This document shows positions 627 to 20,017 of a stretch of 41,888 nucleotides of DNA, one piece after another. This DNA is from Caecibacter massiliensis (GTDB lineage: Bacteria; Bacillota; Negativicutes; Veillonellales; Megasphaeraceae). Positions within the stretch are counted from its first letter, which is position 1. Each line of letters opens with the position of its first letter. The stretch covers positions 2,607,197 through 2,649,084 of the forward strand of contig LT608311.1 of NCBI GenBank assembly GCA_900095875.1. Direction: 5' to 3'. Position numbers and translations under genes: made by a program. The notes under the pieces are model-generated. The model saw nothing but the letters and a program-made list of their open reading frames with translations, was not told the DNA's origin and ran no database searches.

Positions 627-869
627 TTATGTAGACGGCCGGTGAGACGTTTCATCGCTTTCTTTCGATGATACATCCGATGATTCTTCCGGTTTCGTCT
701 GTGACGTATCGGTCTGTTCTGACGATGAGTCATCGTCTTTCCGGACTTCTGCCCGGAACTCCCGCAGGCTCGTTCCCAGCGCCTTTCCCAGGCCGGCAAC
801 TTTTTTGCCTCCAAAGAGGACGACGACAATGAGTAAAATCAGGATAAGTTCTTGTGTTCCCAGATGCAT
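627..869 (-). CDS. tatA: Sec-independent translocase TatA/E subunit
   Basis: 80-residue protein with a short periplasmic N-terminus, one hydrophobic helix (residues ~7-22), the FGGKKVAGLGKALG hinge followed by an amphipathic helix, then a charged Ser/Glu/Asp-rich tail. This is the full TatA architecture at normal length. TatA forms the pore of the twin-arginine pathway, which exports folded proteins. ATG at 869 has AAAGGAG upstream. It starts 14 nt after the second chromate-transporter gene and is probably co-transcribed with that pair. No tatC is in the window, so the partner must be elsewhere. Confidence 0.9.
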   Translation of the reverse strand: MHLGTQELILILLIVVVLFGGKKVAGLGKALGTSLREFRAEVRKDDDSSSEQTDTSQTKPEESSDVSSKESDETSHRPST

Positions 870-883
870 AACAGTCTCCTTTC

Positions 884-1456
884 TTATACAGGCAGGATGC
901 CCATGAGTCCCAGTACGAGGCCCAGGACGCCCGATCCGATGAGGACTTTGATGACGCCGATTTTACGGCGGATAGCCACCAGCGCCAGGATGAGGACGAG
1001 GATGGCAGCCGGACTGAAAGCCCCAAAGTCTTCCGGCACCGATTCAGTGCTCCACACGGCGAGCCAGACAAAGCTGAGGCTGGCCGCACAGATCAGTCCG
1101 ACGACAGCCGGGCGCAATCCGTTCAATACGCCGCGGATGGGACCGATATTGCCGTATTTGAAGAACACCCGGGCCAGGATGATTCCCAGAATCAGGGACG
1201 GAGCGACAAATCCGGCCGTCGCACAGACAGCACCGCCGAGACCGGCGATTTTCGTCCCGGCAAAGGTAGCCGCATTGATGCCAATCGGGCCGGGTGTCAT
1301 TTGTGAAATGGTGAATATATCGACAAATTCACTCATTGACAGCCAGTGGAAGGTATCGACCACCGATGCCTGGATGAGCGGCATGGAAGCATAACCGCCG
1401 CCGACACAGAAAATGCCGACTTTGCAGAATTCCCAGAATAATTGCCAGTAAATCAT
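884..1456 (-). CDS. Chromate transporter family half-protein (second of a pair)
   Basis: 190-residue integral membrane protein of the CHR family. It has the F.VGGGYASMPLIQ motif near residue 20 and TPGPIGINAATFAG near residue 55, then several hydrophobic segments. Short CHR proteins (~190 aa) are half-size and act as two-gene pairs in place of one ~400-aa ChrA. This gene lies 17 nt after its partner in the same orientation. Family members export chromate or related oxyanions, but many in anaerobes have no proven substrate. Likely controlled by the divergent LysR gene at 2197. Confidence 0.85.
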   Translation of the reverse strand: MIYWQLFWEFCKVGIFCVGGGYASMPLIQASVVDTFHWLSMSEFVDIFTISQMTPGPIGINAATFAGTKIAGLGGAVCATAGFVAPSLILGIILARVFFKYGNIGPIRGVLNGLRPAVVGLICAASLSFVWLAVWSTESVPEDFGAFSPAAILVLILALVAIRRKIGVIKVLIGSGVLGLVLGLMGILPV

Positions 1457-1473
1457 GATCTATCTCCCCCCTT

Positions 1474-2058
1474 TTAATCATACCTGGCATCACGCATACA
1501 TAACAGCCCGATGATGCCATCGATGAGGACCAGATACATGAGGTTCACGTCGAAGACGACATTGGCAATGAACGTAGCGGCAATGATGACCAGCGGCAGG
1601 ATGAGCTTTTTTTTGCACTGCTTCATCAGCAGATTGATGCCTACATTGACCATGAGGGCTGTAGCACCGCACTGCATGCCCCGCAGGATCATCTTGACTA
1701 TCTGGCTCTGGATAAAGAAATCATAGCAGTAAGAAATAATGCTCAAGGTAATGAGCGGCGGCAGCACCGTCGCAATGAGGGCGGTCAGTGTACCGGCGAT
1801 ACCGGCCATGCGGTATCCCAGGATGATGGCACTGTTACAGGCAATGACACCGGGCATGGACTGGGCAATGGCGACCATATCCAGCGTTTCTTTGTCGCTG
1901 ATCCAGTGGTATTCATCGACGTATTTGGCCTTGAGAAGGGGCACGATGACATAGCCGCCGCCAACGGTAAAGGCACTAATAATAAATGTGGATTTAAATA
2001 AGACCCAGAAAAAATGGGCATCCCGGCGGGGATGTTCCAATGTGGTTTCTTCTTCCAT
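1474..2058 (-). CDS. Chromate transporter family half-protein (first of a pair)
   Basis: 194-residue membrane protein paralogous to the next gene. It shares the FTVGGGYVIVPLLKAKYV motif (residues ~32-50) and SMPGVIACNSAIILGYR (residues ~68-85), the CHR signature with a slightly different glycine/proline pattern. Together the two halves would form a heterodimeric CHR transporter. ATG at 2058 is preceded by GGAGGAACT. The gene is first in an operon chr-chr-tatA read from the promoter at 2113-2118, and is divergent from the LysR gene. The exact oxyanion cannot be inferred. Confidence 0.85.
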   Translation of the reverse strand: MEEETTLEHPRRDAHFFWVLFKSTFIISAFTVGGGYVIVPLLKAKYVDEYHWISDKETLDMVAIAQSMPGVIACNSAIILGYRMAGIAGTLTALIATVLPPLITLSIISYCYDFFIQSQIVKMILRGMQCGATALMVNVGINLLMKQCKKKLILPLVIIAATFIANVVFDVNLMYLVLIDGIIGLLCMRDARYD

Positions 2059-2083
2059 CGGTAGTTCCTCCTTTATCAGACAG

Positions 2084-2118
2084 GTGCAATTGTTTCCTCG
2101 TTTCTATCTGGAATTATA
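2084..2118 (-). promoter_or_regulatory. Promoter of the chr-chr-tatA operon
   Basis: On the minus strand a perfect TATAAT lies at 2118-2113, preceded after 16 nt by TTTAAT (a weak -35). The rest of the 2059-2196 gap is very AT-rich, with overlapping palindromic stretches around 2130-2180 that could bind the divergent LysR protein. I could not fix a single LysR box. Confidence 0.5.
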
Positions 2119-2196
2119 CCAGCATTCGTGCTATATTAAAAATATAATTTTAATTTAGCAAATATATATTTTTCATATAGTAAGGAAGGGGTATCC

Positions 2197-3063
2197 ATGG
2201 ATTTACGACAACTCCGGTATTTCGTCGCCGTCGTCGAGGAAGGACAGATCACGGCAGCGGCCCGGCAGCTTCATATGGCACAGCCGCCACTATCCCAGCA
2301 GATACAGTTACTGGAAAAAGAGCTGGAAGTAGATTTGTTTATCCGGGAGCACCGTCACATGGAACTGACGGAAGCGGGAAAACTGCTCTATGAACGGGCC
2401 CGGCAGATCCTGAATCTCAGCGATTCGGCCAGGCGGGAAATCCGCGATTTCAGGCAGGGACTCAAAGGAACGCTGCACATCGGTACCGTATCGAGCTCAG
2501 GCAGTGTCATCCTCAGTTCGGCCATGCGCGATTTTCATCAGAAGCATGAAAGCGTTCATTTCGAAATTTATGATGGCAATACCTTTGAGGTCATCGATAT
2601 GCTGCACAAGGGCCTGGTTGAAATCGGCATTGTCCGCACGCCGTTCAAGGCCGGATCTTTCCATTGTAAAATACTCAACGAAGAGCCGATGGTGGCCGCA
2701 CTGCCCCGGGAACTGGACTGGTGTCCCGACCGGACTCATATTACCCTCCGGGAACTCAATCAGAAACCGCTCATCATCTACCGGCGCTTCAACCAACTCC
2801 TTCAGGATATCTGCACCAGCCAGGATATGAATCCCGTATTTTTCTGCCGCAACGACGATGCCCGTACGACCATCCTCTGGGCCAACGCCGGTCTGGGCAT
2901 CGCCGTTACGCCCGCTTCTGCCGTACATCTGGCAGCCCACGATAACCTGAGCGTGAAAATTATCGACGAACCGTCCCTGCGCACGCGCATTGCCGCCATC
3001 TGGCCCAAAGGACGATACCTGTCCAGTTTGGGAGAAAGTTTTATTCAGGCATTGCAATTATAG
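2197..3063 (+). CDS. LysR-family transcriptional regulator
   Basis: 288 residues, the normal LysR length. The N-terminal winged helix-turn-helix (MDLRQLRYFVAVVEEG, AARQLHMAQPPLSQQI, FIREHRHMELTEAG) is textbook, followed by a two-lobed effector-binding domain from about residue 90. ATG at 2197 follows AAGGAAGGGG. It is divergent from the chromate-transporter pair, and LysR proteins usually control the gene next door in response to a small ligand, so it is the probable regulator of chr-chr-tatA. The ligand is unknown. Confidence 0.9.
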   Translation: MDLRQLRYFVAVVEEGQITAAARQLHMAQPPLSQQIQLLEKELEVDLFIREHRHMELTEAGKLLYERARQILNLSDSARREIRDFRQGLKGTLHIGTVSSSGSVILSSAMRDFHQKHESVHFEIYDGNTFEVIDMLHKGLVEIGIVRTPFKAGSFHCKILNEEPMVAALPRELDWCPDRTHITLRELNQKPLIIYRRFNQLLQDICTSQDMNPVFFCRNDDARTTILWANAGLGIAVTPASAVHLAAHDNLSVKIIDEPSLRTRIAAIWPKGRYLSSLGESFIQALQL

Positions 3064-3064
3064 C

Positions 3065-3123
3065 TTGCCTTATGTGGATATTTTTGGTATACTTTATACA
3101 TAATAAATAATCGTTATTTATTA
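3065..3123 (+). promoter_or_regulatory. Promoter with a 23-bp palindromic operator at the start site
   Basis: TTGCCT (3065-3070), a 17-nt spacer and TATACT (3088-3093) make a good promoter for the gene at 3147. Directly downstream, TAATAAATAA (3101-3110) and TTATTTATTA (3114-3123) form a perfect 10-bp inverted repeat around TCG, covering about +1 to +23. A protein bound there would block transcription. The repressor is not identifiable. Confidence 0.6.
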
Positions 3124-3146
3124 CATATTCATGATGAGGTGATACC

Positions 3147-3746
3147 ATGGAAAAAACAGTACAGCAGATGTTCGCCAAACGTCGTACGAATTATACATTG
3201 GGAAAGGATGTCACCCTGCCCCAGGAAGAAATCACGGCCCGCATCGAAGCGGTCGTCCGGGAAGTCCCGTCGGCTTTCAATATGCAGTCCGGCCGCATTA
3301 TCATTGCCTACGGCAGTGCTCATGACAAAATATGGCAGATAACCAAAGACGCCCTCCGGGCGGTCGTACCGGCCGAAGCATTTGCCAATACGGAAAAGAA
3401 AATCGATTCCTTTGCCGCCGCTTACGGCACCATCCTCTATTATGACGATACGGATGTCGTGAAAAAGCTGCAGGAACAGTTCCCCCTGTATGCCGCCAAC
3501 TTCCCCACATGGGCCCAGCAGGCCAACGGCATGATGCAGTATGCCCTGTGGACACTCTTTGCCAATATGGGCCTGGCTGCCAACCTGCAGCACTACAACC
3601 CGCTCATCGACGAAGCCCTGGCCAGTGAATTCGACGTACCGGCCTCGTGGCAGCTCATCGCCCAGATGCCCTTCGGCCAGCCTCTGAGCCAGCCGGGACC
3701 GATTGAAAAACTGCCCATCGACGAACGGGTCAAAATCGTATTTTAA
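3147..3746 (+). CDS. Nitroreductase-family protein, Frm2/Hbn1-like
   Basis: 199 residues. It starts KTVQQMFAKRRTNYTLG and carries PSAFNMQSGRIIIAYG (residues ~50-65), HDKIWQ and the terminal region typical of the Frm2-like branch of FMN-dependent nitroreductases. These enzymes reduce nitro compounds or quinones with NAD(P)H. The yeast members are linked to fatty-acid signalling and oxidative stress. ATG at 3147 follows GATGAGGTG. Single gene with its own operator-bearing promoter and a strong terminator. The substrate is not deducible. Confidence 0.8.
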   Translation: MEKTVQQMFAKRRTNYTLGKDVTLPQEEITARIEAVVREVPSAFNMQSGRIIIAYGSAHDKIWQITKDALRAVVPAEAFANTEKKIDSFAAAYGTILYYDDTDVVKKLQEQFPLYAANFPTWAQQANGMMQYALWTLFANMGLAANLQHYNPLIDEALASEFDVPASWQLIAQMPFGQPLSQPGPIEKLPIDERVKIVF

Positions 3747-3768
3747 TATATAAAGACATACCAGCGCA

Positions 3769-3848
3769 GAAAAGACTGCCTTGAATCGGATTCAGACCGT
3801 TACCCAGGAAACACGGCGACGGGAATCTGATGAAGGCAGTCTTTTTTT
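3769..3848. terminator. Long bidirectional terminator hairpin
   Basis: AAAAGACTGCC (3769 on) pairs with GGCAGTCTTTT, and an inner AATCGGATTC pairs with GAATCTGAT (one G:T), around a ~28-nt loop that can itself pair CCGT with ACGG. It is flanked by A and T runs on both strands and lies between the plus-strand nitroreductase and the minus-strand MFS gene, so it would end both transcripts. It is also the end of the corrinoid superoperon. Confidence 0.8.
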
Positions 3849-3879
3849 ATCCGGAAGGCTCATTTCCTTTAAAAACCAC

Positions 3880-5079
3880 TCAGAACCACACCGTTTTCGG
3901 GTCCTCGTTGTGATAGGTGCGGTAGAGCCAGAAACTGGCCGCCAGGAGGATAGCCGACATAACGAAGAAGATAGATTTCATGCCCCACCAAGTCGCAAGA
4001 GTTCCGCCCAGAAGAGGGCCGGCCATGGATCCGAGCTGCTGGGCCGTAAAAAGCAGACCGTAAATACGTCCTTTGAAGTCTGGCGGCGTATGCTGGGCCA
4101 TGATGGCGTTGAGAGCCGGATTGATGCCGGAAAAGCAGAGGCCGATGGTGAACTGGGTCACGGAAAAGGCTGCCAGCGTATTGGGAAGGCCCTGCAGGGC
4201 TTCTCCCATAGCGGTGACAAAAATCGATACGGTGAGGATGCGGATAAAGCCTTTCTTCTGCCCTGCCTTTCCCCACAGCGGCGCGGCGATGGCACCGGAA
4301 ACACCGGACAGGGAAATGACGAATCCTGTCGTAAGGGCCAGATTGGGAATATCACCGGCCAGACTGGTGATATACGTAGACAGGACGGGCTGGAGGATGA
4401 AAATGACCATCTGGATCAGTGCTCCACATATCAGCATATTGCGCAGGAGGGGCTGGCGCAATACGTCCAGCTGGGACAGGTGGCGCGTCTTTCCGGCTTC
4501 GTCCTTTTCCGGATCGGGCGGCTCCTTGATGAAGAAGATGAACATGAGGCCGTTGATAAAGAGGAAAAAGGCGGCGATAAAGAAAGAAAAGCGCATGCCG
4601 AACAAATCGGACAGGATGCCCCCGAACAGCGGTCCCAGGACACTGCCGGCCGTCATGACCCCCTGCATGGTCCCCAGGCAGAACCCAAGCTTGTCTTCGG
4701 GAGCATAGAGTGTCATAATGGCCAGATCCATAGGCCACAATCCGTAGGCAAACCCCTGGAGGAGCCGCATGAGTGTCAGCTGTTCCGGTGAGGTGACCAG
4801 GCCGCCGCAGAAATAGCTGAGCGACAAAAACAGACAGGACCGGATAGCCATAGGCTTTTTTCCGTGGGCATCAGCCAGCTTTCCCCAGATGGGTGCCATG
4901 ATGGTACTGACCAGAAAAGTGGAGGAAAATACAATGCCCGACCAGAGGTGGACATCTCCCGGCAGAACGCCCAATTCGTCCGTGAGATAGATTGGCAGGA
5001 AGGGAATGAGCATCGTATAGCTGAATGACATAAAGAGGATGTTGCAGGTCAGAATAGCCAGAACGACTTTCCAATTCAT
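3880..5079 (-). CDS. MFS efflux transporter at the tail of the corrinoid operon
   Basis: 399 residues with about 12 hydrophobic segments. The MFS motif A appears as GKLADAHGKKPMAIRS after the second helix, and GSVLGPLFGGILSD after the fifth is the motif C found in drug:H+ antiporters. It resembles the MdtG/NorA type. ATG at 5079 has GAGGGG 5 nt upstream. It begins 26 nt after cbiC in the same direction with no terminator between, so it is probably the last gene of the operon. That context suggests export of a corrinoid, a tetrapyrrole intermediate or a metal, but this is inference; an unrelated drug exporter is possible. Confidence 0.8.
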   Translation of the reverse strand: MNWKVVLAILTCNILFMSFSYTMLIPFLPIYLTDELGVLPGDVHLWSGIVFSSTFLVSTIMAPIWGKLADAHGKKPMAIRSCLFLSLSYFCGGLVTSPEQLTLMRLLQGFAYGLWPMDLAIMTLYAPEDKLGFCLGTMQGVMTAGSVLGPLFGGILSDLFGMRFSFFIAAFFLFINGLMFIFFIKEPPDPEKDEAGKTRHLSQLDVLRQPLLRNMLICGALIQMVIFILQPVLSTYITSLAGDIPNLALTTGFVISLSGVSGAIAAPLWGKAGQKKGFIRILTVSIFVTAMGEALQGLPNTLAAFSVTQFTIGLCFSGINPALNAIMAQHTPPDFKGRIYGLLFTAQQLGSMAGPLLGGTLATWWGMKSIFFVMSAILLAASFWLYRTYHNEDPKTVWF

Positions 5080-5105
5080 AAAATCCCCTCTTTTCTGCCA
5101 GCGTA

Positions 5106-10955: not shown

Positions 10956-11711
10956 CTATTGGGACGCTTTGCGGAATCCATGAGTAAAGGATGGATCATA
11001 CAACTTACTCCGGTCGTAGGAACCATCGAGGAAATCACCGACCAGGATGAGCGCGGTCCGGGTAATACCGGCAGCTGCCGCCGTTTCCGCCAGGGTCGCC
11101 ACCGTACAGGGACAGACCCGTTCATCCGGCCAGGATGCCTTGTAGACGATAGCCGCCGGCGTGTCCTCTGCATAGCCGCCACGGATGAGCTCGTCCTGCA
11201 GCTTGTCCAGAAGACCTGTACTGAGGAAAATGACCATCGTCGCATGATGGGCGGCATAGTCGGCAATGCGCTGACCGTCTGGCACGGGAGTCCGGCCTTC
11301 CATGCGGGTGATGATGACCGACTGGCTGATGCCGGGCAGGGTGTATTCCTTGCGGACGGCAGCGGCGGCGGCAGAAAAGGAACTGACGCCGGGAACGTAC
11401 GTATAGGCGATGTGCCGCTGGTCCAGGGCATCCATCTGTTCGCGGATAGCCCCGTACAGGCTGGGATCGCCCGTATGCAGGCGGACCGTCATCCTGCCCG
11501 CTGCTTCGGCCTGTTCCATTTCCTGCAGGACGTCTTCCAACGTCATGGAGGCGCTGTTGCAGATGCGGCATCCTTCTTTGGCAAACTGGAGCAGCTCTGG
11601 ATTGACCAGCGATCCGGCATAGATGATGAGGTCTGCTTTTTCAAGCAGTTTCTGGCCCCGTACGGTAATGAGATCGACGGCTCCCGGGCCGGCTCCGACA
11701 AAATATATCAT
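10956..11711 (-). CDS. cbiF: Cobalt-precorrin-4 C11-methyltransferase
   Basis: 251 residues: IYFVGAGPGAVDLITVRG, IIYAGSLVNPELL, LHTGDPSLYGAIREQM and VPGVSSFSAAAAA, all diagnostic of CbiF/CobM. It transfers a methyl group from SAM to C11. I chose ATG at 11711 because it overlaps the cbiL stop by 4 nt and begins at the conserved N-terminus; an in-frame start at 11783 would lie within cbiL. Confidence 0.95.
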   Translation of the reverse strand: MIYFVGAGPGAVDLITVRGQKLLEKADLIIYAGSLVNPELLQFAKEGCRICNSASMTLEDVLQEMEQAEAAGRMTVRLHTGDPSLYGAIREQMDALDQRHIAYTYVPGVSSFSAAAAAVRKEYTLPGISQSVIITRMEGRTPVPDGQRIADYAAHHATMVIFLSTGLLDKLQDELIRGGYAEDTPAAIVYKASWPDERVCPCTVATLAETAAAAGITRTALILVGDFLDGSYDRSKLYDPSFTHGFRKASQ

Positions 11712-12424
11712 AGGTTCTCCTCCTGTCTTACGAGAATCACAGAAAAATACCCCGTATCGTCTGCCTTTCGTAAATCCGTGCATACCCGTTCCCCCGGAAG
11801 ACCACAGCGTTCTACCAGGGAAGCGTGCTGCAAAAGTCCTGCGTCCTGCAGTTGTTCCTTGAGGGCGCCCATATGGCGGGGTACTTTCATGAGGACCTTG
11901 CTCCCCCGTACGGCGAGAAGGTCCGGCAGATCGTCCCGTCCGGCCGGTACGATGAGAAGGGGTTCATCCTTTTCACACAGGGGCTGGCCCAGACGGGCGG
12001 CAGCCGCCGAGAAGCTGGTAATGCCCGGAATGACGACGGTTTCATAACCGCGGCGGCGGATTTCTTTCTGGATATACATGCACGATGCGTAAACCGTCGG
12101 GCAGCCGAGAGTAATGAGGGCGATATCGCATCCCCCGTCGAGGACGGCAGCCACCTTGTCTGATGCATCGCTGTGCGCTTTTCGAAGCTGATTGGCATCG
12201 CGGGTCATGGGAAAGGTCAGGGACAGGATATCCTTTTCTTCCAGATGCAGCCCTTCCTGCCGGGCCGCGGCTTCTTTCAGGATGGCGGCAGCAGTCTGAC
12301 GGCCGCTCTGGTCTTCGGGCAATGCCAGCACCGGGCAGCGGCACAGGGCATGCCAGGCTTTAAAAGTCACTAGTTCCGGATCTCCCGGCCCCATGCCGAC
12401 GCAGTATAACGTTCCTTGTTTCAT
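11708..12424 (-). CDS. cbiL: Cobalt-factor II C20-methyltransferase
   Basis: 238 residues: CVGMGPGDPELVTFKA at the N-terminus, DIALITLGCPTVYAS around residue 95 and ETVVIPGITSFSAAAARLG. It catalyses the first committed methylation after cobalt insertion. It overlaps cbiD by 4 nt. Being encoded second in the cbi block, it shows the operon is not ordered by pathway step. Confidence 0.95.
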   Translation of the reverse strand: MKQGTLYCVGMGPGDPELVTFKAWHALCRCPVLALPEDQSGRQTAAAILKEAAARQEGLHLEEKDILSLTFPMTRDANQLRKAHSDASDKVAAVLDGGCDIALITLGCPTVYASCMYIQKEIRRRGYETVVIPGITSFSAAAARLGQPLCEKDEPLLIVPAGRDDLPDLLAVRGSKVLMKVPRHMGALKEQLQDAGLLQHASLVERCGLPGERVCTDLRKADDTGYFSVILVRQEENL

Positions 12425-13557
12425 TCAGCCTTCTCCTTCTGGTGAAAGGCCAGCAGTTCCTCTGCGCGGGGAGTCTGGGCCAGCACACCGTAACGATTAG
12501 AAAACATCATGGCACCGCAGCGGATTTCGCCGTGGACCCGCTGGTCCATGTAATATTGGATTTTTCCGGCTGCCGCCGTCATGACCGGTCCGAGCAGCTG
12601 CGCTTCTATCAGTATCTCTATGGCCGTATCGGTCGTCGTACATTCATATATGCGGCGGCCCGTATCACGGCCGGCACCGCACAGCATGGCCTGGAGAGCC
12701 ATGAATTCCATGCGCCCGTCTGCATAAAGGGAATGGGTGTTCATGATGCCCATCGCCAGTTTGATGAGTTTTCCCGTATGGCCGATGAGCAGGACATCTT
12801 CAAATCCTTTATAGACGGCATAGTCGAGGAGTTCGCCGACGTAATTGCTGCAGGTGACACGCTGGGAGACATCGAGATGCAGCACATCGCGGCTGAAATC
12901 GACGCCATAGTTGCCAAAAAAAGCAAGGAGGTGGCGGACGCCGTCAGCCTTGCGGGAGTTCATTTCCGTATGGATCGTATCAATCAGAGCCTGCTCGCTC
13001 ATGGGATCGACAATGCCCGATGTCCCCAGGACCGACAGTCCCCCTTCAATGCCCAGGCGGGGATTGAACGTACGGGCTGCCAGGGTCTCTCCTCCGGGAA
13101 TGGAAATGGTGACGACCAGTCCGCCCGTATAACCGGCCCTTTGTGCTTCCCTGCGCACCGCTTCTTCTATCATGCGCCGCGGCGTCGGATTGATGGCAGG
13201 ACCTCCCTTGGGACAGGAAAGGCCATCACGGGTCACACGGCCCACACCGGGACCGCCGCAGAGGCGGATGCCCTCTCCGGTCTTTTCTACCGTTGCGAAG
13301 ACGAGCATGCCGTCGGTAATATCCGGGTCATCGCCACTGTCCTTGCGGATGGCACAGGTCACCCGGTCCGGGCCGATAGACACCTCTTCCGGCTCCAGTT
13401 CCAGACCGATACCCCGGGGCGTCATGAGGCGCACGATGGCAACGGGCATTCCCGTAAAGAGCATGCGGGCGGCAGCCTTGGCGGCAGCGGCAGCACAACT
13501 GCCGGTCGTATAGCCGCAGCGTAATTTTTTTCCTTGTACGATTTTGTAAGTATCCAT
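12421..13557 (-). CDS. cbiD: Cobalt-precorrin-5B C1-methyltransferase
   Basis: 378 residues beginning with the hallmark LRCGYTTGSCAAAAAKAA, then GGPGVGRVTRDGL and a glycine-rich LIGHTGKLIKLA motif. It methylates C1 in the anaerobic pathway. The ATG at 13557 has no clear Shine-Dalgarno sequence, unlike every other gene of the operon (upstream reads ATATACAGAAAACA), so its translation may depend on coupling or a special leader. It is preceded by a 78-nt gap with a palindrome. Confidence 0.95.
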   Translation of the reverse strand: MDTYKIVQGKKLRCGYTTGSCAAAAAKAAARMLFTGMPVAIVRLMTPRGIGLELEPEEVSIGPDRVTCAIRKDSGDDPDITDGMLVFATVEKTGEGIRLCGGPGVGRVTRDGLSCPKGGPAINPTPRRMIEEAVRREAQRAGYTGGLVVTISIPGGETLAARTFNPRLGIEGGLSVLGTSGIVDPMSEQALIDTIHTEMNSRKADGVRHLLAFFGNYGVDFSRDVLHLDVSQRVTCSNYVGELLDYAVYKGFEDVLLIGHTGKLIKLAMGIMNTHSLYADGRMEFMALQAMLCGAGRDTGRRIYECTTTDTAIEILIEAQLLGPVMTAAAGKIQYYMDQRVHGEIRCGAMMFSNRYGVLAQTPRAEELLAFHQKEKAE

Positions 13558-13635: not shown

Positions 13636-14412
13636 TCAAAAGACGAGGACCCGGCGGCCCGAAGCCGTGACGGCCGCTTCACCGGACACGGAAAACACGT
13701 CGTGTATCATCTCCGGCGTGATGACATCCTGCGGACGGCCCTGGGCGACGATGCGGCCCTCTTTCATGACCAGCGTGCGCCGGCTGTAGCGGAGGGCCTG
13801 ATTCATATCGTGCAGGACGAGGACAATGGTCAGATGGAGCGTTTCGTTGAGCTGCTGCAAGAGTTCCAAGATATCCAGCTGGTGGCGGATATCGAGGTAC
13901 GTCGTCGGTTCATCGAGGAGCAGGATCTGCGGCTCCTGGGCCAGGGTCATGGCCAGAAAGGCCCGCTGCTGTTCGCCGCCCGATAAAGTATGTACCAGGC
14001 GGTCCCGGCAGGACCGGATGCCGGCATCGGCCATGGCTTTTTCGATAATATCCCGTTCCTGCATGGAAGGACGGCGGTAAAACGTCCGGTAGGGAAACCG
14101 GCCCAGACTGACCAGTTCGTACACGGTCATGTCTTCCGGGATATCGTGTTTCTGTGTCAGGATTGCCATGCGGCGTGCCAGCTGGCGGCGGCTGTATGAC
14201 GAAAGAGGCCGTCCCTCGAGAAAAGCCTGTCCGGACTGGGGCCGGATCATATGACAGAGCACTTTGAGGAGCGTGCTTTTGCCGCATCCATTCGGTCCGA
14301 TGATGGAGAGAAACTCTCCCGATACCACGCTCAGACTGATATCATGCAGGACCGGTACATGTCCCAGCGTTACCGATATATGGTCCAGACTCAGAGCCTG
14401 CGGTGTATCCAT
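13636..14412 (-). CDS. btuD: Corrinoid/iron-siderophore ABC transporter ATPase (BtuD-like)
   Basis: 258 residues with Walker A GPNGCGKST (39-47), Q-loop LTQKHDIP, signature LSGGEQQRAFLAMTLA, Walker B ILLLDEPTTYLD and switch histidine in VLHDMNQAL. This is the FecE/BtuD/FhuC class of importer ATPase. ATG at 14412 overlaps the permease stop as TGATG and is better spaced from AGGAGG than the GTG at 14415. The substrate is assigned as corrinoid from the riboswitch and operon. Confidence 0.9.
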   Translation of the reverse strand: MDTPQALSLDHISVTLGHVPVLHDISLSVVSGEFLSIIGPNGCGKSTLLKVLCHMIRPQSGQAFLEGRPLSSYSRRQLARRMAILTQKHDIPEDMTVYELVSLGRFPYRTFYRRPSMQERDIIEKAMADAGIRSCRDRLVHTLSGGEQQRAFLAMTLAQEPQILLLDEPTTYLDIRHQLDILELLQQLNETLHLTIVLVLHDMNQALRYSRRTLVMKEGRIVAQGRPQDVITPEMIHDVFSVSGEAAVTASGRRVLVF

Positions 14413-15395
14413 CACACGTCCCTCCTAAGAAGATACAGAAAAAACGGTGCGCCCAAAAGCGCCATGATAATGCCGACGGGCAGTTCCACCGGCGCCAGGA
14501 TGATCCGAGCCACCGTATCGCACCAGGTCACGACAGCCATGCCCAGAAGGGCCGATCCCGGTATGATATAGCGGTAATCCGTCCCTCCCAGGAGGCGGAC
14601 CATATGGGGCACGATGAGGCCGACAAATCCCAGGAGCCCGGCCACGCTGACGGCACTGGCCGCCAAAAGCGCGGCAATGGCTGTCAGTCCCAGCCGTGCC
14701 CGCTCGACCGATAGCCCCAGGCCGCGGGCCATGTCATCGCCGAGCTGCAGGAGATTGAGATAGGAAGCTCCAAACAGGGACAAAGCCAGCCCCGTCAGGG
14801 TGTACGGCACGATGAGGGTCACGTCATTCCAGCTGCGGGCAGCCAGCCCTCCTACCATCCACAGCAGGGCGCCGTGTACGCGGTCACTGTAAAAGATGAG
14901 CAGACTGGAAATGGCAGCGCCCAGAAAGGCCGACACGGCGACGCCGGCCAGGATGACGCGCACGGGCTTGATGCCATTTTTCCAGGCCAGGATGTAAATC
15001 ATGACAGCTGCCACCATGGCACCCGTAAAGGCAGCGGCCGGCATGAGATACGTATAGGCAGGAAACAGGATGAGGATGGCAATACCCGTAAGACCGGCCC
15101 CGGACGAAATGCCGATGATATGAGGATCTGCCAGAGGATTGCGCATGACCGCCTGAAGGATCGCCCCGGAAAGGGCCAGATTCATGCCGACCATAGCGCC
15201 GGTCACGGCCCGTGGCAGGCGGATATTCCAGATGATCTGACTCATGGTGCTGCTATCGGGAACGAGGAGAAACTGCAGGGCTGCCGACGCCGTAAGAGAT
15301 GCCGCCCCCTGGGTGACCGACAGGACGATACCCGTAATGGCCAGCAGGGCAAACAGCATAAGCAGGATCAGCCGCTTCAGCCAGCGCCGCCCCAT
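14412..15395 (-). CDS. btuC: Corrinoid ABC transporter permease (BtuC-like)
   Basis: 327 residues with about ten membrane segments. Typical FecCD-family motifs are IRLPRAVTGAMVGMNLALSG, MRNPLADPHIIGISSGAGL and GFVGLIVPHMVRLLGG. It would work as a homodimer with two ATPase subunits. The start overlaps the binding-protein stop by one base (TGATG) and follows GGAGGTG. Single permease gene, so a BtuC2D2 arrangement is likely. Confidence 0.9.
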   Translation of the reverse strand: MGRRWLKRLILLMLFALLAITGIVLSVTQGAASLTASAALQFLLVPDSSTMSQIIWNIRLPRAVTGAMVGMNLALSGAILQAVMRNPLADPHIIGISSGAGLTGIAILILFPAYTYLMPAAAFTGAMVAAVMIYILAWKNGIKPVRVILAGVAVSAFLGAAISSLLIFYSDRVHGALLWMVGGLAARSWNDVTLIVPYTLTGLALSLFGASYLNLLQLGDDMARGLGLSVERARLGLTAIAALLAASAVSVAGLLGFVGLIVPHMVRLLGGTDYRYIIPGSALLGMAVVTWCDTVARIILAPVELPVGIIMALLGAPFFLYLLRRDV

Positions 15396-16363
15396 CAGTG
15401 AAACACCTCCGGATAGACGGTTTTGGCCATATAAGCGACGGCCTGCGGATAATCCAGCCCCGGATTGAGGAGAAACAGATTTTCCGGCAGCACATAGACC
15501 CGCTTCTGCCGCACCGCCGTGAGGGTCTGCCAGGCAGGACTGCTTTCCACGTCCTGCCGGAGCCTTTCTTCGATTTTGTCACTCCGGCCCATAGAGGTGA
15601 TGAAAATGACATCAGGGTCCTTTTCTACGAGTGCTTCCATACTGTACGGCACCTTTTCGGCACTGTTTCCCACCTTGTCCGCCCCGTCCTGTGCTACATT
15701 AGTAAATCCCAGGATGCGGGCGGCATCGCCGGCAATGCTCTTTTCCAGTTCCAGACTGACATGGCTGGGCGTAGCGTGCAAAATGGCGACAGTCAGATGA
15801 TTGTCAGGGATTTTCTCTTTGACAGCCTGTATTTCCTTATCCATGGCAGCGATTTTTTCCTGTGCCATCTCTTCTTTTCCGTAGAGTTTTCCCACCAGTG
15901 TCAGATTCCGTTTTACATCGTCATAGGTCTTCGTCGTCAGAGCAAGAACGGTCACGCCGTTCTGTTCCAGCAGGGGGATGAGTTTCTCATGCTGATTTTT
16001 ATTGGCCAGTACCAGGTCGGGCTGGCAGGCCATGATTTTTTCTACGCTTACATTGTAGACGGGCCCGACTTCAGGGACATCAGCATATCGTTCCGGCAGA
16101 GCCGCCGCATCCGATTGGACTGAAGCCCGTCCGGCAAGATTTCCATCGACGGCATCGGCAAAATTCAGCAGCGACGTGGAAAGGACGACGATGCGCTGCG
16201 GTTTTTCTTTGATTGTCACCGTGCGGCCGGCGTCGTCAGTCACCTGGGCAAAGGCCGGACCGTCCGATGACGGCACCTGTTTTTCCGGTCCGCATCCGGC
16301 AAGTCCCAGACAGGCCAGCATCAGTCCCATACAAACAAAGACGGCAGTCATGCATTTCTTCAT
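15395..16363 (-). CDS. btuF: Corrinoid-binding lipoprotein of ABC importer (BtuF-like)
   Basis: 322 residues. A signal peptide ends in a lipobox (ACLGLAGC), so the protein is lipid-anchored. The mature part has the helical-backbone binding fold of the BtuF/FhuD class: DDAGRTVTIKEKPQRIVVLS, then QPDLVLAN. ATG at 16363 is chosen because AGGAGG lies 8 nt upstream; a GTG at 16372 is too close to it. It hands corrinoid from the receptor to BtuCD. Substrate inferred from context. Confidence 0.88.
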   Translation of the reverse strand: MKKCMTAVFVCMGLMLACLGLAGCGPEKQVPSSDGPAFAQVTDDAGRTVTIKEKPQRIVVLSTSLLNFADAVDGNLAGRASVQSDAAALPERYADVPEVGPVYNVSVEKIMACQPDLVLANKNQHEKLIPLLEQNGVTVLALTTKTYDDVKRNLTLVGKLYGKEEMAQEKIAAMDKEIQAVKEKIPDNHLTVAILHATPSHVSLELEKSIAGDAARILGFTNVAQDGADKVGNSAEKVPYSMEALVEKDPDVIFITSMGRSDKIEERLRQDVESSPAWQTLTAVRQKRVYVLPENLFLLNPGLDYPQAVAYMAKTVYPEVFH

Positions 16364-16375
16364 TCCCGACACCTC

Positions 16376-18685
16376 CTAGAATTTCTTTTGGATCCCGATC
16401 TGCCAGTTCCGGCCGCTGGCAGGATAATTGTGATACAAATCATAGCTTTCATCATTGATATTATTGATTTTACCATAAATGGTCATATCTTTGCTGGCGG
16501 CATAACTGACACTGCCGTTCCACACGACGTAGGAATTGTTGCTGTAATACGTGTCATTCCGGCCCGTGCCCGCCGTCATATCGACAGAGGCCTGCCATTT
16601 CTTGCTGTGATAGGCCACGCCGGCACGGTAGCCGTTGGGCTGGTTGTAGGTCTCATCAAAGACGAGTCCGTCTCCACTGTCCGTCCGGGTATGGATATAG
16701 GAGTAACCGGCATTCCATTCCCAATGATCATTGACCTTCTGCTTCCACGTCAGTTCCAGCCCCCGTTTATCCTCCTCATCGAGGTTTTCCGCTTCGTGGG
16801 GCGTGACGCTGCGGTTCCAGCGGATGACATGGCGCAGATGACTGTGGAAAATACTGCCTTCCAGGTACGATTTGGGGTGTATCTGATACTGGAATCCCAG
16901 CGTCTGCGTATAGCCTTCTTCCGGCTGCAGATCTTCTCTTCCCCGTGAGGATGATGTCACGTAAAACTGGTCGTTGAGACGCGGCGGCGAAAAGACGCGG
17001 CCCCAGGACGCGTAAACGTTAAAGGCGTCATTGGCCTTATAATTCATGGCCAGGCGCGGTGTACGGTGCAGGCCAAAGGTACTGTTGTCGTCGATCCGCA
17101 ATCCCGGCGTCACGGTCCACTTGCCGAAGTTGAGGGCATCCTCGGCATATACAGCCCGGTTGTGCCGTTTTTTGTCTATATAATGGGCCTCATAGTTGGT
17201 CCCCATATCTTCCGTCCATTCGGCTCCGGCCGTCACATGCTGATGGGGGCCCAGCTGCCAGTTATTCTGCCATTCCAGTCCCTGCGTCCGGGTCAGGAAA
17301 TGATTGGTCCAGAACGTGCGCTGGTAATCGTTGAAATAGCGGAAGAATCCCGGCTGGGACGAACGGGTATGGAAATTATATGTCAGGCTGTAATCGTTAA
17401 TCAGTCGTTCGATTACCTTATTAGTACTGAGGTACCAGCCCGGCAGGCGCTCTTTGCGCAGGTTCCGGGGCAGGGAGCGGGAATAGGATGGCAGGAACGT
17501 CGATCCATGGCCATGGTAATCCTGATGATAAGCCTTGAACGTAAGCGAACTATCCCTGGTCAGTTCCTGATCCAGTCTCAGGTCGAAGGACTGGCGGAAA
17601 ATATCGCCGCGGGAACGATCCGTATTGATACCATGGGGAAAGGCATAATACTGGCGCCGTTCCATACTGCCGCTGACCAGCCAGGACGTACGGTCCCGCT
17701 TCCCGCTGTTCGTAAGCGTATAGCCATGCATGCCCCACGAGCCGGTATAGGCCGAAAGAGTCGCTTCGTCGTGATCGGCTTTCTTCGTTACGATGTTGAT
17801 GACACCGCCGACGGCACCGCTGCCATAGCGGACGGAGCCGCTGCCTTTCGTCACTTCCATATGGTCGATAGCTGCTATGCCAGGCAGGCTGGTCAGATCT
17901 ACGCTTCCCCTGCCGTAGCCGCTGCCCTGGGCGTTGGCCAGGCTCTGTCCGTCGACGAGGATGAGCACCCGGTCATCACCGTTGAGCTTGACGAAGGAAG
18001 AAATACCCGGTACCTGTTCGTTGACGGTGACGCCGGTCACGCGCTGCAGTGCTTCCTGGACGGTCTGGTCCCGGTGGGTCTGGATATCTTCCCGGGTGAT
18101 GATGGTCGTATTGGACTGACGGGCCGGAACAGAGGGAACGGGCCGTTCCTTCTCCGCCCGTTTCCCTATATCGGGGAGCCTGTCCCGCAGGGCATCGAGC
18201 ATATCCGCCAGGGCACCGGCGACATGAATCGAGCCGGACGGTGCCGCGCTTTCGTCCGTCCCGGGACCGGCTGCCCGTCCGCTGCCGCCGTCGCCATGAG
18301 CCATTCCAGGACCGGCCGTTTCTGCCCGGCCAGACCGGGACGGTTCTCCTGCCGTCGCGGCGGTATGCACCGGTCCCGTATGATAGGTATTTGTCACCGT
18401 GGCCGCCATGGAAGGCGCTTGTGCGGCGTCCGTTCTTATGCGACCGCCTTCCTGACGTTCTGAAGCCAGGGGGCTTCCGCTATTGCCGTCCGTCCCTGCC
18501 GCATCCCGGCCGCCGGCACCGGACAGATCGTTGGCATTATAGACCGTAACGGTGCCGGGCTCCTGCCGTGTGTAGTTGTAGGCTATGGTAAAAAAGCCGC
18601 CTGCTGCCAGGGCCAGATAAGCCGCCGCATGGAGAGACACGGACAGACCGGCGGCGACGCGCCCTTTCTTCTTCTCCCATGTCAC
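16376..18685 (-). CDS. TonB-like inner-membrane anchor fused to a BtuB-like outer-membrane receptor
   Basis: 769 residues in one open frame. Residues ~10-36 are a hydrophobic segment with the S-V-x-x-H motif (S15, H19) of the TonB transmembrane helix, which in E. coli TonB (S16, H20) contacts ExbB/ExbD; EPGTVTVYN follows. Residues ~55-190 are a Gly/Ala/Ser/Thr-rich linker. The plug begins near 193 (TTIITREDIQTHRD, VLILVDGQSLANAQGSG, GSVRYGSGAVGGVINIVT) and a ~460-residue beta-barrel ends in a terminal Phe. No TonB C-terminal domain is present. The gene overlaps exbD by 4 nt, exactly where tonB would be expected. The N-terminus may instead be an odd signal peptide. Corrinoid is the inferred ligand. 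Confidence 0.85.
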   Translation of the reverse strand: MTWEKKKGRVAAGLSVSLHAAAYLALAAGGFFTIAYNYTRQEPGTVTVYNANDLSGAGGRDAAGTDGNSGSPLASERQEGGRIRTDAAQAPSMAATVTNTYHTGPVHTAATAGEPSRSGRAETAGPGMAHGDGGSGRAAGPGTDESAAPSGSIHVAGALADMLDALRDRLPDIGKRAEKERPVPSVPARQSNTTIITREDIQTHRDQTVQEALQRVTGVTVNEQVPGISSFVKLNGDDRVLILVDGQSLANAQGSGYGRGSVDLTSLPGIAAIDHMEVTKGSGSVRYGSGAVGGVINIVTKKADHDEATLSAYTGSWGMHGYTLTNSGKRDRTSWLVSGSMERRQYYAFPHGINTDRSRGDIFRQSFDLRLDQELTRDSSLTFKAYHQDYHGHGSTFLPSYSRSLPRNLRKERLPGWYLSTNKVIERLINDYSLTYNFHTRSSQPGFFRYFNDYQRTFWTNHFLTRTQGLEWQNNWQLGPHQHVTAGAEWTEDMGTNYEAHYIDKKRHNRAVYAEDALNFGKWTVTPGLRIDDNSTFGLHRTPRLAMNYKANDAFNVYASWGRVFSPPRLNDQFYVTSSSRGREDLQPEEGYTQTLGFQYQIHPKSYLEGSIFHSHLRHVIRWNRSVTPHEAENLDEEDKRGLELTWKQKVNDHWEWNAGYSYIHTRTDSGDGLVFDETYNQPNGYRAGVAYHSKKWQASVDMTAGTGRNDTYYSNNSYVVWNGSVSYAASKDMTIYGKINNINDESYDLYHNYPASGRNWQIGIQKKF

Positions 18686-19098: not shown

Positions 19099-19713
19099 TC
19101 AGTCCTCCTTTTCCCGGGGCATCGTTTCGAGAGCCGAAAAACACAGCTCCATATCGGTGATGATCCGGTCCAGGCGCTGGGTGAAATACGAATGGATCAG
19201 CAGGGCCAGGATAGCCACGCATAGGCCGAAAGCCGTAGCAATGAGCGCTTCGCCGACGCCGCCGGTGATAGCGGCCGACTGGCCAGTCTGTACGTTGAAA
19301 ATACTAAAGGCCCGGATCATACCGCTGATGGTTCCGAGCAGGCCCAGGATCGGCCCCAGGGTCACGATGACACTGAGATAATACAGGCGGCTGCGCAGCT
19401 TTGCCATGAGAATGCCCGACTGCAGTTCGATATAAGCCCGGACATCCCTGCCCGTACGGCCGGCAAAGACGTCGCGCAGGATATAGGCCAGCCCTCCCTG
19501 GCTTTCATCGGCCAGCGTCCGCGCTTTATCGTACTGTCCCAGTTTCATATACGTGTAAAACCTTTGGGCAAAGGCTGCCCCGGCATCCATGTGGGTATAA
19601 AAAATAGCCCGTTCCAAACCGATATAGACGACAAACAATGAACACAACAGGAGGATGTACATGACAATCCCACCCTGCCGGAACAACAAAAATCCACTAG
19701 TAATCGCTTCCAT
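19099..19713 (-). CDS. exbB: ExbB proton-channel protein
   Basis: 204 residues with three membrane helices. The conserved second/third helix region reads LGPILGLLGTISGMIRAF and GGVGEALIATAFGLCVAILAL. ATG at 19713 is chosen because TAGGAG lies 8 nt upstream; a start at 19731 would contain that ribosome binding site. First gene after the cobalamin riboswitch terminator, so ExbB/ExbD here appear dedicated to corrinoid uptake. Confidence 0.92.
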   Translation of the reverse strand: MEAITSGFLLFRQGGIVMYILLLCSLFVVYIGLERAIFYTHMDAGAAFAQRFYTYMKLGQYDKARTLADESQGGLAYILRDVFAGRTGRDVRAYIELQSGILMAKLRSRLYYLSVIVTLGPILGLLGTISGMIRAFSIFNVQTGQSAAITGGVGEALIATAFGLCVAILALLIHSYFTQRLDRIITDMELCFSALETMPREKED

Positions 19714-19744
19714 ACTACCGCTCCTATACATACTGAAACAACTG

Positions 19745-19799: not shown

Positions 19800-20002
19800 T
19801 CCTAATCCCCATCCCCATCGCTCGCAGGTCTGCCGGTGATTCTTTGTCAGGCAGTTCTTCTGGCTCGGATTCATGACCCTGCTGCGCCTTCCCATACAGA
19901 TATACAGTGGCGTTTCTGCAGCAGTGCTCCTCCTTACAGCGGCGGGACCGCGCCGGCTTATACCGGCTTTTCTATTGAGTCTTGCGACACCTGACAGCTC
20001 CT
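19800..20002 (-). promoter_or_regulatory. Cobalamin riboswitch (aptamer)
   Basis: The minus strand carries, in order, AGGTGTCGCAAGAC, a GCCGG stem, GGTCCCGCCGCTGTAA, GCCACTG, GGGAAGGCGCAGCAGG and the B12 box GAGCCAGAAGAACTGCC (about 19867-19851). It then has ACCGGCAGACCTGCGAGCG, the peripheral stem-loop. These are the conserved elements of the AdoCbl/MeCbl class of riboswitch. With the downstream terminator it should shut off exbB-exbD-receptor-btuFCD, and by readthrough the cbi genes, when corrinoid is abundant. A 116-aa open frame across it is not a gene. Confidence 0.9.
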
Positions 20003-20017
20003 ATGCAGTTGTATTTA

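Follow-up and report, generated by a model that had tools for sequence, protein, structure and literature searches.

In the canonical Ton system of E. coli, an inner-membrane motor of ExbB and ExbD drives TonB, which powers the uptake of nutrients such as vitamin B12 through the outer-membrane receptor BtuB by way of a non-covalent contact between the TonB C-terminal domain and the TonB box of the receptor. The S-H-L-S residues of the TonB anchor helix have been described as the motor-binding motif, and the strand that follows the helix as a motor box that the same authors find in all TonBs (PMC12204202). How TonB energises receptors is disputed, including whether it pulls or rotates and whether it must bind and let go in each cycle. 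Pulling through TonB unfolds about 50 residues of the BtuB plug before the non-covalent contact breaks (PMC5413942). A disordered stretch of 127 residues can replace TonB domain II and still support growth and colicin uptake, with H20 essential, although the same study reports that a disordered domain II transduces force poorly in the Tol system and lowers colicin sensitivity (PMC10666116). We describe here a locus in which the inner-membrane half of TonB is continuous with a BtuB-like receptor. No report of a natural fusion between a TonB anchor and a receptor was found in an open-access library, as judged from titles and the beginnings of abstracts; PMC11658791, PMC8767330 and PMC8928145 were consulted in addition to the papers cited for specific points.

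The window analyzed is a stretch of 41,888 nucleotides from Caecibacter massiliensis (GCA_900095875.1, contig LT608311.1, positions 2,607,197 to 2,649,084). An open reading frame of 769 codons on its minus strand begins with a GTG start that overlaps the exbD stop by 4 nt. The features of the locus are as follows.

13636..14415, minus strand, btuD-like ABC ATPase (PF00005)
14412..15395, minus strand, btuC-like permease of the FecCD family (PF01032)
15395..16372, minus strand, btuF-like periplasmic binding lipoprotein (PF01497, with a lipobox)
16376..18685, minus strand, fused TonB-anchor/BtuB-like receptor gene, 769 aa
16379..17770, minus strand, residues 306-769, β-barrel, 22 strands by our count of the predicted model, closest solved fold E. 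coli BtuB
17771..18112, minus strand, residues 192-305, plug domain
18113..18247, minus strand, residues 147-191, pre-plug segment found in all five fusions, with a predicted short helix at 157-169 (low confidence), standing where separate receptors have their signal peptide and TonB-box region
18248..18523, minus strand, residues 55-146, linker, predicted disordered and fast-evolving
18524..18550, minus strand, residues 46-54 (VTVYNANDL), motor-box-like strand
18578..18685, minus strand, residues 1-36, TonB-type transmembrane anchor with S15, H19 and L26
18682..19095, minus strand, exbD (PF02472)
19099..19731, minus strand, exbB (PF01618)
19833..20009, minus strand, cobalamin riboswitch upstream of exbB (RF00174, 92.7 bits, E=6.8e-22, full model)

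The riboswitch is the only Rfam match in the window at gathering score. Two ORFs just beyond btuD (window 11708-13557, minus strand) read like cobalamin biosynthesis genes, CobI/CbiL-like and CbiD-like, as named by eye without a search. Within the fusion, Pfam assigns the Plug domain to residues 191-295 and the TonB-dependent barrel to residues 323-743, and no TonB C-terminal domain (PF03544/PF13103) is found, with no TonB_C match at E<=1. The AlphaFold2 model (mean pLDDT 73, from an alignment of 28 sequences) shows an N-terminal helix at residues 4-29, very low confidence from 25 to 189 (pLDDT below 50), as expected of a disordered linker, and then a confident plug and barrel. Its nearest solved structures are E. 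coli BtuB, the first being the BtuB:TonB complex 2GSK. The initial annotation, which had reported a TonB-type helix with S15 and H19 in SVSLH running in frame into a plug and barrel without a TonB C-terminal domain, is thus correct in its observation. One detail differs, as the linker from the end of the helix to the plug is about 155 residues in this protein (155-190 across the five fusions) and not about 135.

We then asked whether the N-terminus is genuinely TonB-like or only a hydrophobic leader, the comparison with TonB profiles having been proposed in advance as a check. A profile was built from about the first 56 residues of 12 separate TonBs, with no linker and no fused member, and run over 1028 ORFs of 80 aa or more from the window and 42 of the retrieved loci, not all of them. 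At E<=10 it returned its 12 members, the broken TonB of genome G006 (genomes of the genus examined here are numbered G000 to G014) and the five fusions (E 1.6e-7 to 1e-5, the window protein being the weakest at 1e-5), and nothing else, although the set contains many receptors and lipoproteins with signal peptides. A profile of the whole separate TonBs also finds the fused N-termini in 5 of 5 genomes, more weakly (E 8e-9 to 1.7e-3). S15, H19 and L26 occupy the positions of S16, H20 and L27 of E. coli TonB and are invariant in 5 of 5 fusions. The fourth SHLS position, S31 in E. coli, is G in the fusions, but also in 4 of 4 nearest separate TonBs. VTVYNANDL aligns with VTMVTPADL of E. coli TonB; this motor-box assignment rests on sequence only, its function not having been assayed.

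The distribution of the fusion was examined next. In a search of 15 genomes of the genus (Megasphaera), 14 had matches. Five of them (G000, G002, G005, G006 and G009) carry the intact full-length fusion, always in the order exbB-exbD-[tonB:btuB]-btuF-btuC-btuD. In four others (G001, G011, G013, and G012 as far as its contig goes) the same place holds exbB-exbD-tonB-btuB as separate genes, and the more divergent G004 has the same order. G007, G008, G014 and G003 have btuB-F-C-D without exb genes in the stretch retrieved, and in G003 several of these frames are broken. G010, a draft genome of 82% completeness, has no Plug or TonB match and only a sub-threshold ExbD match, and is possibly a species that lost the Ton system. 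The neighboring genus also has separate tonB and btuB behind exbB-exbD (G015, and G016 as far as its contig goes), with the ABC genes upstream instead of downstream, so separate genes are most likely ancestral. The five fused receptors are split from the other 23 receptors (22 in a second tree, from which only the G004 receptor was removed) with support 100 in both trees, consistent with one fusion event; a label of 83 in the first tree belongs to another split. Of 20 receptor regions retrieved, 13 entered the alignment (A2), and seven (L122, L126, L129, L134, L135, L137 and L139) were left out because the longest ORF had a doubtful start or was the wrong frame. The broken G003 receptor was not used. 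In searches of 17 family, 61 order and 380 class genomes, only these five showed the fusion, within the limits of those searches. The class search with one query (A1) gave matches at E<=1e-70 in 132 of 380 genomes, with at most two candidates scored per genome, and among the best-scoring matches only these five had a match starting before position 100. A class search with another query (A3) gave matches at E<=0.01 in 290 of 380 genomes, with no frame over 357 aa among the best-scoring of them, but the frames examined all score above the known fusions, so independent fusions elsewhere are not excluded.

Selection on the fused gene was estimated over five species pairs. dN/dS is 0.08-0.20 for residues 1-52, 0.28-0.71 for the linker (computed on residues 54-146), 0.10-0.20 for the pre-plug segment (one pair saturated), 0.05-0.16 for the plug and 0.07-0.12 for the barrel, with synonymous sites near saturation in the distant pairs. 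The anchor region is thus close to the barrel whereas the linker changes much faster. As a control, the signal peptides of a second TonB-dependent receptor were compared in G000-G006, G000-G009 and G006-G009, where they are 40, 34 and 69% identical against 72, 75 and 97% for the fused anchors of the same pairs. The 34 and 69% count a seven-residue longer start in G009, without which they are about 44 and 88%. BtuF signal peptides are 29-39% identical in pairs with G000 (gap columns counted), but 84 and 95% in the two closest pairs, where the anchor is 78 and 97%. The control is therefore clear only at the larger distances. The G006 orthologue of a second G000 receptor (L113:3171-5060) is interrupted, with a TGA in the match and two ORFs in its place.

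An inventory of the tonB genes, also called for beforehand, was made in the fused genomes. G002, a single contig of 99% completeness, and G005, in 170 contigs and 99% complete, show one Plug, one ExbD and one ExbB each at E<=0.01, and no TonB_C. TonB_2 gives nothing in G002 and only noise at E=0.38 in G005, and the fusion is the only match to the 12-member TonB profile in both, even at E<=10. In these two species, no other protein that these profiles recognise could link an ExbB/ExbD motor to the receptor. G000 and G009 have a second exbB-exbD-tonB set, so there the fusion need not be self-sufficient. The same applies to G006, which at first seemed to be a third fused genome lacking TonB, until its second tonB was found to be interrupted by a run of N in the assembly. 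There are also very large TonB-dependent receptors, with frames of about 1300-1850 aa and the plug near the N-terminus, at L118:5319-10067 (a locus of G014) and L119:602-5392 (G008), with similar long frames in G001, G003, G004, G006 and G007. In the two scanned whole, the barrel match ends at residues 843 and 882, leaving about 700 residues after it with no Pfam match at E<=0.01. Another large receptor of G014 appears split into two overlapping frames (L118:105-791 and 772-5094), the first with the plug side and the second with the barrel, possibly by a frameshift or as a phase-variable gene.

Relative to the separate genes, the fusion lacks the TonB C-terminal domain, a recognisable TonB box and any ordinary receptor signal peptide. 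A TonB-box motif, by a pattern of our own, occurs in 0 of 5 fusions and in 18 of 23 separate receptors. Its absence alone proves little, because the 5 separate receptors without it include 2 of the 4 nearest (G011 and G012), and a very degenerate box is not excluded; GSIHVAGA was considered as such a box and is not matched by the motif search, but is not ruled out. No 15-residue stretch of the linker reaches signal-peptide hydrophobicity (best 0.59-1.19, against 1.48-2.29 for the signal peptides of separate receptors), and the TonB-like helix is the only export signal seen in the protein. A signal-peptidase site removing the anchor had been named as a result that would count against the fusion. 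AxA-like residues (A25-L26-A27) lie inside the helix, but the same or similar residues stand in the separate TonBs, which must stay anchored to work; cleavage was neither predicted with a dedicated program nor measured, and these residues leave room for cleavage. With respect to BtuB, the protein scores best against NCBIfam TIGR01779, but at 178.5 bits it falls short of the cut-off of 599.7, as does the separate homologue of G013 at 245.4 bits. The riboswitch and the BtuF-, BtuC- and BtuD-type genes downstream supply the cobalamin context, whereas transport of cobalamin itself was not assayed.

We favor, with fairly good confidence, the view that this protein is a self-energised vitamin B12 receptor. 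In this view the anchor helix would sit against ExbB/ExbD in the inner membrane, and the chain would cross the periplasm as a disordered linker of 155-190 residues and end as the plug and barrel in the outer membrane. Proton flow through ExbB/ExbD would move the anchor and motor box, and the force would run along the covalent chain directly into the N-terminus of the plug, opening it and letting cobalamin into the periplasm, where BtuF and BtuCD would take it up. The covalent link would thus replace the contact between the TonB C-terminal domain and the TonB box. What the analysis itself establishes is the gene architecture and its counterpart as separate tonB and btuB, the conservation and selection, the failure to find another TonB in two species, a complete receptor fold (as predicted), and the riboswitch and operon; that the anchor is not cleaved, that the chain spans both membranes, that force is transmitted directly and that B12 is the substrate are inferences, no complex prediction and no experiment having been made. 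At 0.4 nm per stretched residue, the figure used in PMC5413942, the linker would be 62-76 nm long. This is far more than the roughly 20-25 nm needed to cross the periplasm, so slack must be taken up by winding, by structure in the linker or by the motor; the 118-residue linker of E. coli TonB (47 nm, PMC5413942) poses the same question. A disordered linker would also have to overcome the poor force transduction reported for a disordered domain II (PMC10666116). Assembly by BAM of a barrel whose N-terminus is held in the inner membrane has no precedent known to us, and how it would proceed is unknown. Because the link is permanent, the usual step in which substrate exposes the TonB box and recruits TonB cannot apply, and the pre-plug segment shared by the five fusions is, speculatively, a candidate for a replacement switch. 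The interpretation in the initial annotation, a receptor wired to its own ExbB/ExbD and bypassing free TonB, is supported by this comparative evidence. Its alternative of an in-frame event joining tonB and btuB is how the gene most likely arose, but the product is conserved and under selection.

Among other explanations, the best surviving, although unlikely, is that the TonB-like helix now serves only as an unusual signal peptide, which is cleaved to leave a receptor that works like any other with a free TonB. The AxA-like residues, the lack of another export signal, and the presence or apparent presence of another tonB in 3 of 5 fused species are in its favor. However, no other TonB was found in G002 and G005, no TonB-box motif is seen in 5 of 5 fusions, and the motor-contact residues, together with the motor box beyond the candidate cleavage residues, are under purifying selection. 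In addition, the N-terminus still scores as TonB while no ordinary signal peptide does, and the linked exbB-exbD pair is kept even where it is the only pair found. Slightly more doubtful is that the chain is made as one protein but cut in the linker, the fusion being mainly a way of exporting the receptor and transport being passive or driven by something else. The predicted disorder of the linker could make it protease-sensitive, but the freed anchor would have no C-terminal domain and no evident use, yet is under selection, and the freed receptor would have no known TonB in G002 and G005. An assembly or sequencing artefact, or a decaying accidental fusion, is very unlikely and already contradicted: although reads were not examined and the G006 tonB shows that assemblies in this genus can be faulty, the outcomes named beforehand as refuting, a fusion in one strain alone or a frameshift or assembly join, are respectively excluded and made very unlikely by five species with intact frames, orthologues 68-70% identical to the window protein, low barrel dN/dS and the same 4-nt overlap with exbD in all five.

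It is more likely than not that this is a single natural polypeptide with a functional inner-membrane anchor at one end and an outer-membrane β-barrel at the other, driven by its own ExbB/ExbD, in a Ton system with no free TonB, no TonB C-terminal domain and no TonB box, in which transducer and receptor never separate. A natural system in which the transducer cannot let go, and which in two species has no other TonB that could be found, would rule out any general requirement for cyclic dissociation, shuttling or C-terminal dimerisation. It would fix the stoichiometry at one anchor per receptor and show that force through the chain into the plug is enough, which could help settle how TonB powers uptake. 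It would also present a new problem for barrel assembly, and it gives the field a ready-made covalent construct to test.

The locus can finally be compared with each of the closest described systems. With the canonical Ton system of E. coli it shares the anchor helix with S, H and L at matching positions, the motor-box-like strand, a long periplasmic linker, the plug and 22-strand barrel, and the cobalamin context, but TonB and receptor are one chain. Lacking a defining feature of TonB, the globular C-terminal domain, and one of TonB-dependent receptors, the TonB box, the protein is a member of neither family in the strict sense, while working, on the best reading, like both at once. The operons of G001, G011, G013, G012 and G004 have homologous genes in the same order, but tonB and btuB are two genes, with an intact TonB C-terminal domain and a receptor signal peptide. 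In the myxobacterial myxochelin receptor MxcH (NCBIfam NF038079), a TonB part also appears joined to a receptor. The profile, which is matched by L039:6804-7565, seems to begin with a TonB C-terminal domain: that of a separate TonB matches positions 7-84, and the plug region of receptors matches from about position 124 on. This would be the complementary half-fusion, with the C-terminal domain and not the anchor and motor box, although it was seen only as a profile match and no MxcH protein was examined. Finally, force transducers with a replaced C-terminal domain carry an anchor with the SHLS motif, a predicted motor box and a linker leading to a new C-terminal part (PMC12204202); there the new part is a vWA domain, whereas here it is the outer-membrane receptor itself.
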